Of a stretch of DNA of 33,275 nucleotides, positions 904 to 9,326 are shown in pieces; the stretch's first letter is position 1; each line of letters opens with the position of its first letter. The notes under the pieces are model-generated. The model saw nothing but the letters and a program-made list of their open reading frames with translations. It ran no database searches and was not told the origin of the DNA. The position numbers and the translations under genes were made by a program. Origin of the DNA: a virus; IMG/VR virus record IMGVR_UViG_3300010883_000207, positions 1 to 33,275 of that record; one strand, given 5' to 3'.

Positions 904-1110
904 TTAAAAGAAATCCTTTTCACGCTGTTTTTTTAATTTAGAACAGCGCTTCAGGTTTTCCTTATGTTCTCTTTGTCTCTTTAAACTAGGCTTTTCATAA
1001 TATTGCCTTTGTTTTATTTCTTTTAAGAGACCTTCTTTTAAAACTTTTTTCTTAAGCGTTCTAATCGCTTTCTCTATATTATTATTTTTTACTATTACTG
1101 TTATTGTCAT
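904..1110 (-). CDS. rpsU: Ribosomal protein bS21 homolog
   Basis: A 68-residue, very basic protein that matches bS21 along its length: a short beta N-terminus (MTITVIVKNNNIEKAIRTLK), the KKKVLKEGLLKEIKQRQYYEKPS region with the bS21 hallmark YEKPS, and a Lys/Arg-rich C-terminus. Cellular bS21 is about 70 residues. bS21 sits near the anti-Shine-Dalgarno of the 30S subunit and aids initiation; phage copies are documented in pelagiphage HTVC008M and other marine phages and are thought to swap into host ribosomes. There is no convincing Shine-Dalgarno before its ATG, and the leader contains a strong hairpin (1151-1167). It follows the cobS terminator, so it is probably transcribed from its own promoter. 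Confidence 0.92.
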   Translation of the reverse strand: MTITVIVKNNNIEKAIRTLKKKVLKEGLLKEIKQRQYYEKPSLKRQREHKENLKRCSKLKKQREKDFF

Positions 1111-1286: not shown

Positions 1287-2480
1287 TTATTGGTCAACCT
1301 CATCCTCCATGATTACCTCATCATCATTGGTATCTCCTGGATTCAAATCTTCAATGTTAACACCAGCGTCAACTTTTGAATATAAATCAAGGAAACTGTT
1401 TTTAGTGTCATCATCAAAACGATTAACACATACTTGAACTGCTTTAAGTTTATTTTTAAAGATAGCATAAGCATTAATGATATGTACAAGTCTTCTTGTA
1501 GCAATTATTTCATCAACACCTCCATCATAAAAAGTTTTTCTAATAACATCCGCCCATTTAACTAGGTTTTCACAAAATTTCTCATCTTTTAATGAGAACA
1601 TATCCATAACATTATTTAAAATTTTAGTTTCAATTTTAATTGATGGATATTCTTGTTCAAAAGTTACTGGAAATCTTTCCAAAAATGCTTCGTTTAAGAT
1701 GTTAGTCCCAATAAATCGTCCGTCATCACTACCTTTACCTTTAGTATTAGCAGTAGCAACAATATTAAAACCAACTGATGGTTCAACAAATTTACCAATT
1801 TTTTTAAGAAAAACACCATTACCTTCTAGTATTGGTTGTAAACACATAATTTTATTAGAAGCAAGGTCAATCTCATCTAGGAGAAGAACAGCGCCTCTTT
1901 TCATAGCGTCAATAACTGGTCCATCATGCCACACAGTAGCACCATCAACTAATCTGAATCCACCAAGTAAATCGTCTTCATCAGTTTCAACAGTAACATT
2001 AACCCTAACTAATTCTCTTTTCAACTCAGCACAACTTTGAATAATATTTAAAGTTTTACCATTACCAGATAAACCAGTAATAAAAGTTGGATAAAAGATT
2101 TTAGATTTAATTATATTTTTAATATCTTTGTAATTTCCAAAAGATACAAAAGTTGATTCCTTAACAGGAACTAAATTATCAGCGGTACTTGCCGTTGATT
2201 GTAAAGTCACATGCTCTTGAGCAACTTGATTTTTTGGAAGATTTTGTTTTACAACAGGAGCAGGAGTAGAATTAACTTCACCATCAACTGGTAATTTATA
2301 AAGTCCACGACCCACTTTGTAATCTGAATTATTTACTAACCAGCTATTTCCAGTTAGATTGTATTTAGTTTCAATTTCAACTACTTGTTTCCTAGAAATG
2401 GTATCAGTACCAAATTCCTTATAAGCAGTTTCAACAAACTTTTTTTGTTTATCATTTAACATAATATTAACCTCATTCAT
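1287..2480 (-). CDS. cobS: CobS/MoxR-type AAA+ ATPase
   Basis: A 397-residue AAA+ protein resembling the CobS subunit of aerobic cobaltochelatase and MoxR ATPases. Walker A is GLSGNGKT (about residues 136-143), Walker B is VLLLDEID (198-205), followed by a sensor region (VATANTKGKG). The N-terminal 110 residues are a separate, poorly conserved domain. CobS-like genes are common in marine T4-like phages; whether they metallate cobalamin precursors or act as a MoxR-type chaperone is unsettled. The next gene upstream encodes a VWA protein, the usual MoxR/CobT partner, so the two probably form one ATPase-VWA machine. Two starts are possible: ATG at 2480, or an in-frame ATG at 2462 that has GAGG 8 nt before it and better fits the sigma70 promoter at 2494-2522. 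Confidence 0.85.
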   Translation of the reverse strand: MNEVNIMLNDKQKKFVETAYKEFGTDTISRKQVVEIETKYNLTGNSWLVNNSDYKVGRGLYKLPVDGEVNSTPAPVVKQNLPKNQVAQEHVTLQSTASTADNLVPVKESTFVSFGNYKDIKNIIKSKIFYPTFITGLSGNGKTLNIIQSCAELKRELVRVNVTVETDEDDLLGGFRLVDGATVWHDGPVIDAMKRGAVLLLDEIDLASNKIMCLQPILEGNGVFLKKIGKFVEPSVGFNIVATANTKGKGSDDGRFIGTNILNEAFLERFPVTFEQEYPSIKIETKILNNVMDMFSLKDEKFCENLVKWADVIRKTFYDGGVDEIIATRRLVHIINAYAIFKNKLKAVQVCVNRFDDDTKNSFLDLYSKVDAGVNIEDLNPGDTNDDEVIMEDEVDQ

Positions 2481-2493
2481 TAATTATTGTTCC

Positions 2494-2522
2494 ATCCTAA
2501 CATAAAATGGATCAAATGTCAA
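2494..2522 (-). promoter_or_regulatory. Sigma70-type promoter for cobS
   Basis: On the minus strand: TTGACA (2517-2522), exactly 17 nt spacer, TAGGAT (2494-2499). The upstream half of the spacer (TTTGATCCATTT) is nearly the same as in the cobT promoter, suggesting shared control. Confidence 0.6.
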
Positions 2523-2532
2523 GAAAATAATG

Positions 2533-2556
2533 AAATTAATTTGTAACCCATTGAAA
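2533..2556 (+). repeat. 24-bp inverted repeat, copy 1
   Basis: Identical, base for base, to the reverse complement of 5021-5044; the core reads AATTTGTAACCC. It lies between the cobT stop and the cobS promoter (10 nt from its -35 box). The pair brackets cobT. Confidence 0.8.
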
Positions 2557-2579
2557 TATAAAGGTTTTAATTTTTTCAT

Positions 2580-4946
2580 TTATGCTACTTTCTCAACAAA
2601 TTTGTTCAATAAAACCCTGGAAGTCTTCTTTGTTTTCAAGGTTTTAAGAAATTCACGCTTCATTACTGCTGGTGTCATATTTTCATTAACATTTAATTCA
2701 CCATCAGTAATTTTTAAATTTTGTCTAGGTATGATATATAATTCATCATAACCAAAATTCTCTATTAAACCAACTTTATTCTTACTAATTTCTTTTTTAA
2801 TTTTATCAACGATATTATAACCACCATCTTCTGTAAACATAGCTATATCGTTATAACCAATTCTGTTTCTAGCAGTAATGTAAAATCCAATTAAAGTAGA
2901 ACCAGTTTTTGCTTTAAATAATTCAAACATAGGTTTATGATTTCCTTTAAATCCCCAAGATGTTCCATATTTTATTTGTTTTTTTGTATCTGTATCTACT
3001 ATTATTAATTCACAATTATTTCTAACATTAGCAACATACTCATCTTGTCTTCTATATTCTTCTGAATTTGGACTATAATCTTTATTAAGTTGTGTGAAAT
3101 TATTACTTGTATGACCACAACCATCTGTAAGGAAAATTGTATTCATTTTTTGAATTTTATATTTTTTCTGAAATTGACTTACTAATTGTGTTGCAATTGC
3201 AATACAAGGATCAAGTGGAGTACCACCTAATCTCATCATAGAAGGCATATTAATTCTATTATCTCTTTTTTCTTGCCAACTTCTAGTGTTATCATAAAAA
3301 TCATTAAAATTACAAGCAACTCTATAAAAATTAATCATAGCAGTTTGAAAATCAACTGCTTTCATTTCAGAAGAAACAAAATTTATCAAAGATACATTTT
3401 CTAACATCAATTGGTTTTCTTTATCAAATATAAATGGAGGATTACTATATCTACCTCTACCTTCTATACAATTATTTAAATCACCATCTTTATCATAAGT
3501 AGGATAAAAAGATTGTCTGTTAACATCTGTAAAGGCATAAACTTCAAAAGGAATTTGAATTGCTTTACAAAACCAAATAAGATTTAAAGTTTGAGCAATT
3601 GTATCATACATATTATTTGACATACTACCTGACCAATCAACAAAAATATTCATACCGTGATTTTTAGCGCTTGGATCAGTTTCAATTTTCTTAAATACAT
3701 CTTCATTAAATTTATATGAATGTAATTTACTCATATTTAAAGAACCTGATTTTGATGTTTGAGTTCTTTTATAATTATTTGCAGCTTTTTTCATTTCAAA
3801 TTCTTTAACCATATAGGAAACTGTTTTCATATTATCTTGTTTAAATTTTTTAAATTCTCTAGTAGAAAGAATTAATTTTTTTTGTAAATAAGTATCTTTT
3901 ATTAGTTGTCTATCATTTTTATCTTTAAATAATTTTAAAACTTGTTTCCAAGGAATTACAGCTTCTTTTTTTATTTTTGGTAAAGTAACATAATGATTAT
4001 CTCTAGTTTCTTTATCATTATCTGCCATCTTTTTTATTTCTTCTTTATAATTAGCATCAGTAAGTGCTTCATTATCACCTTGAGTAATACCAGCGTCAAC
4101 ATCTGGATCATGTCCTGCACCTTGAGTACCACCTGCTTTTTCTTCTTTTTCTTTTTTATCTTCTTCTTTATTTTCTTTATCTTCTTGTTCTTGTTGTTCT
4201 TGTGATCCTTTTGCTTCTTCTTCTTCTGTTTCTTCTTCTTCATCTGAATGGTTACCAGAACCTTCTTCTGCTTCTTCTCCATCCATTTGTTCATCATTAG
4301 TTGGCATTTCTTCTGTATCAGTAAAATCACCATCTGGATCTGGAACAAATTTATTATTTAAACCATCTTGTTCAGGATCATATTCTTCTTTTTCTTTTGA
4401 ATATTGGAAAATTTCTCTTGCAAGTTTAATCACATCATCAAAAGTATTTAAATTATTTGATTTGTCTATCAATATATTTTCTATATCATTAAATTCTATA
4501 TCTTCCATATTACCAGATTTTGTAAACATATTTAATCTGTCAATAAATCTCATTTTATTAATTTCATTTGATTTAGTACCAAAAAAGTCTTTTGCAACTA
4601 ATTCTCTATAACCATTAAAATATGATTTTCTCAAACCAGGATATTTTAATTTCATTTTTTTATCAATACGGATATCTTCTACAACATTAAAGTATGAATG
4701 AGGAATACCCTTCATTTTACTTTTCATCTCATCTTCATCTTGTGGAGTATATAAAGCGTGACCAACTTCGTGTCCACAAAGTAGGTCATATAAATCATTA
4801 GACATTTCTTTCCATATTGGAAGACATAATGTTCTAGTTTTAGGAATAAAATAAGCGGTCTTAACTTTTCTATGTTCTATGTTAAGATTTTCTGTAGCAA
4901 GAAGTTTTGCTAAATTTGATTTTTGTTCTTTTGTAATTTTTTTCAT
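2580..4946 (-). CDS. cobT: CobT-like VWA-domain protein with HEXXH motif
   Basis: A 788-residue protein in four parts. The N-terminus carries HEVGH (residues 59-63) and a downstream NVVEDIRID (87-95), a zincin-like pattern. A very acidic, Glu/Gln/Lys-rich linker spans about 200-300. A C-terminal von Willebrand A domain has an intact MIDAS: DWSGS (D437, S439, S441), the GGTPLD loop and IFLTDG. The partner is the CobS-like ATPase encoded next; VWA proteins of this kind act with MoxR/CobS ATPases in metal insertion or protein remodelling. The acidic linker is a feature shared with cobaltochelatase CobT. The metal-binding N-terminal motif is what I would not take for granted in CobT. A promoter lies just upstream and a perfect inverted repeat flanks the gene. 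Cobaltochelatase activity is not demonstrated, and the large ChlH/CobN-type subunit is not in the window. Confidence 0.82.
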   Translation of the reverse strand: MKKITKEQKSNLAKLLATENLNIEHRKVKTAYFIPKTRTLCLPIWKEMSNDLYDLLCGHEVGHALYTPQDEDEMKSKMKGIPHSYFNVVEDIRIDKKMKLKYPGLRKSYFNGYRELVAKDFFGTKSNEINKMRFIDRLNMFTKSGNMEDIEFNDIENILIDKSNNLNTFDDVIKLAREIFQYSKEKEEYDPEQDGLNNKFVPDPDGDFTDTEEMPTNDEQMDGEEAEEGSGNHSDEEEETEEEEAKGSQEQQEQEDKENKEEDKKEKEEKAGGTQGAGHDPDVDAGITQGDNEALTDANYKEEIKKMADNDKETRDNHYVTLPKIKKEAVIPWKQVLKLFKDKNDRQLIKDTYLQKKLILSTREFKKFKQDNMKTVSYMVKEFEMKKAANNYKRTQTSKSGSLNMSKLHSYKFNEDVFKKIETDPSAKNHGMNIFVDWSGSMSNNMYDTIAQTLNLIWFCKAIQIPFEVYAFTDVNRQSFYPTYDKDGDLNNCIEGRGRYSNPPFIFDKENQLMLENVSLINFVSSEMKAVDFQTAMINFYRVACNFNDFYDNTRSWQEKRDNRINMPSMMRLGGTPLDPCIAIATQLVSQFQKKYKIQKMNTIFLTDGCGHTSNNFTQLNKDYSPNSEEYRRQDEYVANVRNNCELIIVDTDTKKQIKYGTSWGFKGNHKPMFELFKAKTGSTLIGFYITARNRIGYNDIAMFTEDGGYNIVDKIKKEISKNKVGLIENFGYDELYIIPRQNLKITDGELNVNENMTPAVMKREFLKTLKTKKTSRVLLNKFVEKVA

Positions 4947-4964
4947 ATCTCTTATTATTCTTAT

Positions 4965-4992
4965 ATCCTATACTAATTGGACCAAAAGTCAA
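4965..4992 (-). promoter_or_regulatory. Sigma70-type promoter for cobT
   Basis: On the minus strand: TTGACT (4987-4992), 16 nt spacer, TAGGAT (4965-4970), ending 18 nt before the ATG. The spacer begins TTTGGTCCAATT, matching the cobS promoter spacer at 10 of 12 positions. Confidence 0.55.
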
Positions 4993-5020
4993 GTAAAATC
5001 GTACAATTAAAAGTCTTATT

Positions 5021-5044
5021 TTTCAATGGGTTACAAATTAATTT
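5021..5044 (-). repeat. 24-bp inverted repeat, copy 2
   Basis: Perfect reverse complement of 2533-2556, lying upstream of the cobT promoter (28 nt from its -35 box). A further small hairpin, GTTGTA-TTTT-TACAAC, abuts it at 5046-5061. No gene occupies 4947-5085. Confidence 0.8.
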
Positions 5045-5085
5045 TGTTGTATTTTTACAACACTTGTGGTGTTCGCTGGATGTTC

Positions 5086-6339
5086 TCATCTTCCTACTTG
5101 TTTTAAATACTTATTTTTAGTATCTTCCCATGACAAGTGTATCAAGTCATCATAATAAAGTGTTTCCATGTTCGTCCTAGACTGGTCCAGAAGCGAATTA
5201 ATACGCTTACCTGCATACTTACCTTTCCATACACTAACCAATGTTTCTATACTAGTATCAAAACTTTTCTTTAATTTGTCTTCTTGTATTTCTTCTCTTA
5301 AAAACTCACAAGTGTTATCATATAAGGTACTAAAATAAATACCTCTACTATGTGCTGATTTTGTAATCTCTTTAGGTATCTTTAATTTACCATAAGCAAA
5401 TGTATGACTTCTATTTCTGTGGTCTCTTTTATAAGGTTGTCCTGTAGGTTTTGATGCACTATACCATTCAAAAAATTTTCTTGTGTGATTTTCTTTCAAC
5501 CAATGTCTTAACATCTGTATTGTAGGTTTTGTTGCTTCATATGATACACTACCTGCACTATGACCTCTTTTTTTCCAATGCTTTAGATTTTGATATTGTG
5601 AGAAACTACTATATAAGCTTGTTGTTGTCATACCTACCATAGTATCGCCATACTCTCTTTTCCATATTTCTTGTACTTTATCAGATAGACATAATAATGC
5701 TAATAATTTGCCACCAGTATAATTAAATCCTAATGGTTGTAATGGTACAATCGTACTACCAATAGCAGTATGATTAATCATCTTTTTAGTTTTTCTTTCT
5801 CTATCCCAACCAATATAATTATCTCTAGGTGTTAAATCTAAAAAATCACTTGATACACAAATAACACCCAAATACTTTTTACTTACTTTATCTCTTACTA
5901 TAAAGTTTAAATTTCTACCTATGTTATTATTGTTTTTCATAGTGGAAGCAAATGTTCTTATTGCATTCCATAATTTTGGTAATTCTTTATCTTCTTTTGT
6001 ATGGATTAATTCAGGTTCTAATAACATGAAATCCATAGGGTCTTTAGGTGACCATATATTAGATTTTACATGTGCTAACAGTTTATCTTGTTCTAAATTC
6101 TGTAATTGAGATTCCTCGCCAAATAATGTATTAACAATTTGCGAAGGATATTTGTTTTTAACCTCACACCATTTTTGATATAGTGTATATTCTTCAACAG
6201 ACATTTTAGCAGCAAAAGATAGTTCTTCTATTAATTTAGATTTTAACTCTTCCGTATCTATATGTTTGTATGGCGTAGGATTTTCTTTTTGAAATGTCTC
6301 CCATTGTGCCTCTAATAAAGGGTCTGTATCTGTACTCAT
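5086..6339 (-). CDS. DUF4338 / DruA-like protein
   Basis: A 417-residue protein. The middle (about residues 145-265) carries the pattern I associate with DUF4338: LGVICVSSDF, then RDNYIGWDRERK, then IVPL, then YGDTMVGMTTTSLY, then WKKRGHSAG. DUF4338 includes DruA, a component of the Druantia anti-phage system, and homologs are also seen in phages; the biochemical activity is not known. The N-terminal 140 residues and the C-terminal 130 are not recognised. The C-terminal half is rich in His, Lys and Arg, which would fit nucleic-acid binding. It starts 19 nt after the glycosyltransferase gene with no good Shine-Dalgarno and is followed by the non-coding repeat region before cobT. The family assignment is from memory of the motif pattern. 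Confidence 0.6.
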   Translation of the reverse strand: MSTDTDPLLEAQWETFQKENPTPYKHIDTEELKSKLIEELSFAAKMSVEEYTLYQKWCEVKNKYPSQIVNTLFGEESQLQNLEQDKLLAHVKSNIWSPKDPMDFMLLEPELIHTKEDKELPKLWNAIRTFASTMKNNNNIGRNLNFIVRDKVSKKYLGVICVSSDFLDLTPRDNYIGWDRERKTKKMINHTAIGSTIVPLQPLGFNYTGGKLLALLCLSDKVQEIWKREYGDTMVGMTTTSLYSSFSQYQNLKHWKKRGHSAGSVSYEATKPTIQMLRHWLKENHTRKFFEWYSASKPTGQPYKRDHRNRSHTFAYGKLKIPKEITKSAHSRGIYFSTLYDNTCEFLREEIQEDKLKKSFDTSIETLVSVWKGKYAGKRINSLLDQSRTNMETLYYDDLIHLSWEDTKNKYLKQVGR

Positions 6340-7617: not shown

Positions 7618-9326
7618 TATATTACCCTTGTAAAATTTTTATATTTTTCAAATTTTATTATATTAGAAAACTTATCTGCCATTAAATCTGTTTTGTGTGA
7701 TATTATAATCACATTTTCTCCTTCTAATGTATTTAAGATTTTTAAAAAATCATCTGTACCTTGACCATCCAAACTACTATCAAATATTTCATCTAATAAT
7801 AAAAGATTTGTGGAAATACTATTTTTCATTTTAGCAATAGCTCGCCAAGTAAATAGTAATGCCAAATTTATTCTCATCTTCTCACCTTCACTAAATGAAG
7901 CATAAGAAAAATCGTCCCTAAACCTACTTCGTATAATTTCTTTAAATTCATTATCTAATTTAAAGTTAACAAAGAAATCCATACTTGCAAGATACTTGTT
8001 AATCAATTGATTCATAATAGGCAAATATTGTTTAATAACTTTTGTTTTGATACCTGTATCTGCTAACATTACTTTAGCTGCATTTAGATAATCTAATTCT
8101 TCTTTTTTCTTTAATTGGTCACCTTCATAAGACTTTATTTGGGTTTCTAATTCTTCTAATTTGCCTTTTGCTTTACCTGTGTCTTCACTTTGCTTCATAA
8201 GGTTATCAATTTGTGTTTGATATTTAATATTAATATTTCCTAATTCACCAGAAGATTGTTGAAATTTAGCAATATCAATTTCTATCACCTTCATATCTTC
8301 ATATATACCAGCAATTTTTTGTAATCGTCTTTGTTTACTGACAATTTCTTTAGCAACATCTTCTAATGCTTTATTAAATTTTTTATTCTGTTCATATATT
8401 TGATTTATCTTATCTTGTTTAAAATTTTTATCTATGGGTTGTGTACATGTAGGACAAGTATCATTTATATCAAAAAACTTTTTATGTTTTGTACACTCTT
8501 TTAACTTACCTTCAAATTGTGTTTCAAAACTGTTTAATTTTTTTACTTGGTCTCTTACCTTATTCTCATCAGTAATAGTTTCTTTTGTTTTATCTATTTC
8601 TAACATTAACATATGGGAATGGTCATTATAATTATCTATTGATTTACTATTTTCTAGTATCTTCTTATTAAAATCATCAATTGTTGATTGTGTTTGTTTA
8701 CCTGTTTCTGTAATATATTGTTTTTGTGTCTCTACCTTATTATTAGTAATATCAATATCTCTATTAATATCTCTTAATTGGTCTTGTATTTCTTTTATCT
8801 GCATTTTAACTAACATATTCATTACAGAAAATATCTTAATATCTAATATGTCCTCTACAACCTCACGCCTGTGTGGTGCCTTCAACTCCATAAATGGAAC
8901 AAATGCACTACTACCTAATATAACAACTTGGGTAAAACTTCTATAATTAAATTTAAGGACATTATTCTCTAAATGTTTTTGTTGGTCTGCAACTGTAGCG
9001 TCTTGGTCTACTAATTCACCATTTAAGTATATTTCAAATAAATTAGGTTTAATGCCTCTTTTAATTCTATACTTGTTATGTGATATAGTAAACTCTATTT
9101 CTATTTCTGTACCACCTAAATTAACACTATTAACCATTTGTTCTTTTTTAATATCTCTAAATGGTTTATTAAATAGACCAAAACATAAAGCGTCAAGTAT
9201 TGTTGATTTACCTGCACCATTTTGACCTACAATTAATGTATCTTGATGTTCGTTTAATTTAACTTCAATTCCTGTGTTACCAGTAGATAGGAAATTCTTC
9301 CATCTAATCTTTTCAAATACTATCAT
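7617..9326 (-). CDS. gp46: gp46 recombination endonuclease subunit (Rad50/SbcC-like)
   Basis: A 569-residue SMC/Rad50-type ATPase, close to the T4 gp46 length of 560. Walker A is GQNGAGKST (residues 34-42). Long coiled coils surround a zinc hook, CPTC (291-294). The C-terminal head has the ABC signature SFSEGEKMRINLA and Walker B LLLLDEIFDSSLD. With gp47 it forms the Mre11-Rad50-type complex that resects ends for recombination-dependent replication and degrades host DNA. In T4, genes 47 and 46 are nearly adjacent; here a 2OG oxygenase gene separates them. Confidence 0.95.
   Translation of the reverse strand: MIVFEKIRWKNFLSTGNTGIEVKLNEHQDTLIVGQNGAGKSTILDALCFGLFNKPFRDIKKEQMVNSVNLGGTEIEIEFTISHNKYRIKRGIKPNLFEIYLNGELVDQDATVADQQKHLENNVLKFNYRSFTQVVILGSSAFVPFMELKAPHRREVVEDILDIKIFSVMNMLVKMQIKEIQDQLRDINRDIDITNNKVETQKQYITETGKQTQSTIDDFNKKILENSKSIDNYNDHSHMLMLEIDKTKETITDENKVRDQVKKLNSFETQFEGKLKECTKHKKFFDINDTCPTCTQPIDKNFKQDKINQIYEQNKKFNKALEDVAKEIVSKQRRLQKIAGIYEDMKVIEIDIAKFQQSSGELGNINIKYQTQIDNLMKQSEDTGKAKGKLEELETQIKSYEGDQLKKKEELDYLNAAKVMLADTGIKTKVIKQYLPIMNQLINKYLASMDFFVNFKLDNEFKEIIRSRFRDDFSYASFSEGEKMRINLALLFTWRAIAKMKNSISTNLLLLDEIFDSSLDGQGTDDFLKILNTLEGENVIIISHKTDLMADKFSNIIKFEKYKNFTRVI

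Follow-up and report, generated by a model that had tools for sequence, protein, structure and literature searches.

A promoter-linked, probably IHF-type element behind an inverted repeat around the cobT-like gene of a T4-like pelagiphage

Genes and repeat arms at the locus

The window, the whole 33,275-nucleotide stretch of viral DNA analysed here, is by sequence comparison a genome fragment of a T4-like pelagiphage, a relative of HTVC008M, to which its nucleotide identity is ~73% over the aligned parts of the first 8 kb. The genes near the repeat are all encoded on the minus strand (Table 1). The DruA domain, found in the gene upstream of the cobT-like gene, is known from the Druantia defence system and from DUF4338-type proteins.

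The two arms of the repeat sit in two spacers, one before the cobT-like gene and the other before cobS. The first-pass annotation had described a perfect 24-bp inverted repeat of a length beyond chance, and both points hold. All 24 of 24 bases of one arm are identical to the reverse complement of the other, the pair is the longest among the perfect inverted repeats of the window, and Markov simulations (120, of orders 1 and 3) gave none longer than 19. A looser similarity of 79% extends between the arms over 61 nt. Divergence was also said to begin immediately outside the arms, which is correct except on one side, where the similarity runs on through the rest of a ~40-nt element. With up to three mismatches allowed, the arm pattern occurs at two places in the window, both of them the arms themselves, and the scan of other IMG/VR contigs, which near-identical records may escape, returned no exact 24-mer. 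Furthermore, both copies lie just upstream of promoter-like sequences, those of cobS and the cobT-like gene, in opposite orientation relative to these promoters, as had been pointed out from the start.

Table 1. Positions of the genes, promoters, repeat arms and motifs at the locus
Feature	Position	Strand	Basis or remark
S21 protein gene	904-1110	-	
cobS-like AAA ATPase gene	1287..2480	-	
Sigma70-like promoter of cobS, TTGACA-N17-TAGGAT	2494..2522	-	conserved in relatives
24-bp repeat arm, cobS side	2533..2556	-	sequence comparison
27-bp element, cobS side, inverted with respect to its own promoter	2544..2570	+	profile score 34.3
IHF-like 13-mer TTTCAATGGGTTA, cobS side	2544-2556	-	A-tract 2565-2568
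cobT-like gene, 'peptidase'	2580..4946	-	PHROG 459
Sigma70-like promoter of cobT-like gene, TTGACT-N16-TAGGAT	4965..4992	-	sequence
27-bp element, cobT-like side, ancestral orientation	5007..5033	-	profile score 33.4
IHF-like 13-mer TTTCAATGGGTTA, cobT-like side	5021-5033	+	A-tract 5009-5012
24-bp repeat arm, cobT-like side	5021..5044	+	sequence comparison
Palindrome GTTGTAAAAATACAAC, upstream of cobT-like-side element	5046..5061	-	sequence; relatives have counterparts at phased distances
GAACA-N6-GAACA direct pair, 11-bp period	5070..5085	-	sequence
DruA-domain gene, upstream of cobT-like gene	5086-6339	-	PF14236

Gene order in related phages

A perfect 24-bp inverted repeat around a single gene invites the reading that recombination sites delimit the 2.5-kb cobT-like segment, which would then be either a switch that can invert or what is left of a mobile cobT cassette. 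The corresponding loci of relatives (about 100 fetched, several from the same contigs) speak against it. All related contigs holding both genes have the cobT-like gene upstream of cobS, always in the same orientation; the two are directly adjacent in the HTVC008M-like group, and extra genes are situated between them in P-TIM68 and some other more distant phages. The cobT-like gene is never inverted in these relatives, and cobS is kept downstream of it. The two copies of the element to which the arms belong point the same way, along the genes, in 24/24 distinct relatives with both copies 2.2–2.5 kb apart, and opposed copies occur in the window only. Neither an integrase nor an invertase is present among the annotated features of HTVC008M. 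Since the order and orientation of the cobT-like gene and cobS are kept, the repeats mark neither a gain of cobT nor an inverted segment, and a switch or cassette bounded by recombination sites has a practically negligible probability. Despite its resemblance to a flip switch, nothing about the pair suggests that it works as one. Among the four options initially offered, an invertible segment, a mobile cassette and a site-specific recombination site find no support, and the shared binding site is the one supported.

A promoter-linked element of pelagiphages

Each arm makes up half of an element of ~27 bp that stands before a sigma70-like promoter, TTGACW-N17-TAGGAT. The consensus of the element in the spacers, upstream of this promoter, is TAA-NNNN-TTGAWWWATAA-NNN-TTTT(AATT); almost every copy is followed downstream by such a promoter, and nearly every close relative contains one copy per spacer. 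The element is found before the cobT-like and cobS promoters in HTVC008M and in dozens of IMG/VR contigs of pelagiphages, the phages of marine SAR11 bacteria, and also at a few loci other than these two genes.

In the profile search, the copies mostly score 20–37 bits, with a few weak ones at 15–20, and simulated sequence reaches up to 16. The profile was trained on the same copies, whose scores are thus no independent test; the informative part is the gap below the real copies, the next-best site in HTVC008M scoring 8.7. By the profile, the window has two copies, the complete HTVC008M genome three and the relative G001 at least four. The HTVC008M copies precede the cobT-like gene, cobS and gp185, three copies set against 17 strong promoter-like sites in that genome. 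A DNA-level search of the phage collection gave HTVC008M alone as a convincing match. A wider bacterial family or an attachment-site motif was considered and rejected, as only nine scattered matches, one or more of them within a coding gene, turned up when 84,980 species genomes were scanned for the pattern.

Helical phasing of the element to the promoter

The distance between the element and the -35 box is 31, 40/41, 51/52 or 62 bp in 60 of the 61 distinct instances, the one exception being the relative L084 at 46 bp; on the cobT-like side of the window, it is 41 bp from the start of the element. Where the automatic call was missing, in three instances, the distance was taken by visual inspection: 40 for L021, 51 for L153 and, if its forward orientation is assumed, 31 for L041. 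Across 24 clusters of similar spacers, the vector strength is 0.89 at a period of 10.25–10.5 bp, as high as in none of 20,000 jittered sets, with the instances related by descent and the effective number of independent spacings below 24. The phase steps are shown by both genes and by the other loci. Distances quantised by the helical turn point to a protein site that acts on the promoter and would have to face the polymerase.

Such phasing to the -35 box is unexpected for a terminator or a recombination site, and it bears on a comparison with the PeSLs of T4-like phages (cited in PMC4503421), cassettes in which a stem-loop or terminator together with an early promoter shuffles genes. The likeness to PeSLs (Arbiol 2010 and Comeau 2014, as cited) lies in repeated, promoter-linked intergenic modules of T4-like genomes, with signs of exchange between copies. 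In the present case, too, a hairpin-like sequence precedes a promoter of early type ('early' by sequence type), several copies exist per genome, and recombination between copies is suggested. However, co-variation of the arms is absent (280 of 344 pairs are formed, with 277 expected on reshuffling, p about 0.26), the terminator scan makes no terminator-like call at the sites, and gene order around them is conserved rather than shuffled. The element thus differs from PeSLs in having neither a co-varying stem nor a terminator signal, in its conserved gene order and in its number of about 3–5 copies per genome. The missing co-variation and the empty terminator scan also led to the rejection of a plain terminator or RNA stem-loop. 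A PeSL-like cassette is very improbable, and the element is not filed under that class. No paper describing the element was found in the literature covered by the search, which lay outside the key PeSL papers and most subscription literature.

Resemblance to IHF sites

Read on the opposite strand, the element becomes AAAA-N8-WWTCAA-NNNN-TTR. The published IHF consensus is WATCAANNNNTTR (PMC8942017), with an AT-rich region on its 5' side (PMC7581858). Across 59 distinct copies of the element, every fixed WATCAANNNNTTR column is conserved except column 2 (T 81%, A 17%), most copies having WTTCAA instead of WATCAA, and the four N columns are variable. A full match is found in a minority of copies, and the two window copies match at 12/13 positions. 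In addition, AAAA is conserved at 97–100% per column in these 59 copies, 8 nt 5' of the 13-mer, which provides the AT-rich 5' feature at the same spacing as in a lambda attP site (read from its record). The combined pattern of A-tract and 13-mer occurs in the window at these two sites only. No co-variation is seen between inner positions of the arms, which is how the N positions of a protein site should behave. The element shares with known IHF sites, such as those in lambda attP, 12/13 consensus positions, the variable N positions and the A-tract 8 nt upstream. It differs from them in its second position, which is mostly T, in being a candidate site proposed from sequence, and in its location upstream of lytic-phage promoters rather than at an attachment site.

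We infer that a DNA-bending site of IHF type, linked to promoters, is probably present in two copies and that each arm is half of one of them. A host protein of the IHF/HU family would bind the element and bend the DNA sharply, the site keeping to one fixed face of the helix as seen from RNA polymerase on the sigma70-type promoter downstream. The presumed effect on transcription would be a tuning of the expression of the cobT-like and cobS genes. A phage-encoded IHF/HU was rejected as the binding protein, since no homologue (PF00216) was matched in three phage records. Weighing against the IHF-type reading are this result, the predominance of T in column 2, the single distance of 46 bp, the relatedness of the spacings and the small number of copies in HTVC008M, three beside 17 strong promoter-like sites. 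The literature search found no paper on IHF in SAR11.

It is rather unlikely that the element is instead the operator of a different sequence-specific activator or repressor, of phage or host origin, with a dyad-like AAATCGTT-N7-AACGATTT structure and a coincidental resemblance to IHF sites. Helical phasing would fit any protein acting on polymerase, some copies form perfect dyads, and HTVC008M has an annotated transcriptional regulator and a DNA-binding protein. However, the halves of the dyad vary independently, unlike those of a homodimer operator, and the conserved columns coincide exactly with those of the IHF consensus and with its A-tract spacing.

Flip of the cobS-side copy

The spacer between the cobT-like gene and cobS is nearly identical in the window and in its closest relative, L007, except for a central stretch. 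Re-inverting 27–41 bp of the window spacer raises its identity to L007 from 92 to 106 of 115 positions. By this comparison, a small element upstream of cobS is flipped in this phage only, between AAATTAA/TTAATTT ends; the exact ends are uncertain because they themselves form an inverted repeat. The element would have been turned around between these ends, and the inverted-repeat look of the pair is a consequence of this flip and hence secondary.

The flipped copy of the window resembles the cobT-side copy of L007 (37/40), the cobT-side copy of the window resembles the cobS-side copy of L007 (37/40), and the first half is identical between the two window copies. Such cross-resemblance suggests exchange between copies, by which the two window copies would have been partly homogenised, probably through recombination, and ectopic exchange between element copies may also be involved in the flip. 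Small inversions at hairpins, as reported for chloroplast spacers, likewise flip a short segment between short inverted repeats, but the flipped copy here also differs in sequence.

An assembly artefact, with both sites direct in the true sequence, would also explain a flip that is seen in one metagenomic contig only and whose closest relative, L007, has direct copies. Yet the flipped element differs internally from the cobS copy of L007 at seven positions between near-identical flanks. Moreover, usual assembly k-mers are longer than the 24-bp repeat, which counts further against this improbable explanation. It concerns the flip alone and leaves the IHF-type reading of the element untouched.

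On the cobT-like side, the centre of the pseudo-dyad is located 29 bp from the -35 box. On the cobS side, the flip places it at 34 bp, compared with 28 bp in L007, and the site is thus about half a helical turn out of phase. The activation of cobS is accordingly expected from the model of the site, if it holds, to be reduced or changed, and the flipped copy amounts to a natural experiment on whether the phase is required.

A 31-codon ORF directly follows the stop codon of the cobT-like gene (TAAATG), from 2579 down to about 2484 of the window on the minus strand; it is open in both the flipped (window) and the unflipped (L007) version and is probably due to chance. The cobS-side 24-mer was also considered as a short coding repeat inside this ORF, and this was rejected on inspection, the codon pattern being lost across relatives.

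Upstream motifs and promoter control

In many modules (e.g. L149, L168 and L170), a GAACA-N6-GAACA pair comes first and is followed by a palindrome of the GTGCG..TGTCGCAC or the GTTGCAAAAATGCAAC type. Judged from sequence, the pair and the palindrome together are a candidate operator of a putative regulator. The distances of the palindrome are mostly 12–13 versus 23, with some at 17–21, and those of the GAACA pair are 42–44 versus 52–53, differing as a rule by about one turn. Where these upstream motifs are present, the predicted bend would bring them near the polymerase.

It is quite possible, and is proposed here tentatively, that T4-like pelagiphages utilize a composite phased complex in controlling the cobT-like gene, cobS and a small number of others, with the window as a natural half-turn flip mutant. 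Such a complex is taken to consist of the GAACA pair, the palindromic operator, the IHF-type bend site and the sigma70-like promoter, spaced in whole DNA turns. In IHF-assisted promoters (e.g. NifA/sigma54, cited in PMC8942017), a bend site is likewise situated between upstream motifs and the promoter; the spacing in whole helical turns is a further likeness. The promoter of the pelagiphages differs in being sigma70-like, and the upstream regulator of the element is only putative.

A survey of pelagimyophages reports that approaches by which middle and late promoters are found in cyanophages failed there (PMC7029224). The phased element offers a starting point, in the form of a defined sequence, for studying how promoters are controlled in phages of the abundant SAR11 bacteria, and it predicts DNA bending at the cobT-like and cobS promoters.

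Two further occurrences of similar motifs were observed. In L033 (IMGVR_UViG_3300031830_000024), a phage contig that is apparently unrelated, a very similar element (TAACCTATTGAAAAATAAGGATTTTTT) is repeated at least five times in close succession at 7850-8670. Meanwhile, a TTTGTAAGTCATTGAWTTATAARGG motif is located in the hemE-like/priA-like gene spacer of L160 and L163 (an Oxalobacteraceae MAG and Glaciimonas soli), in both genera, and is possibly a conserved bacterial IHF-type site.
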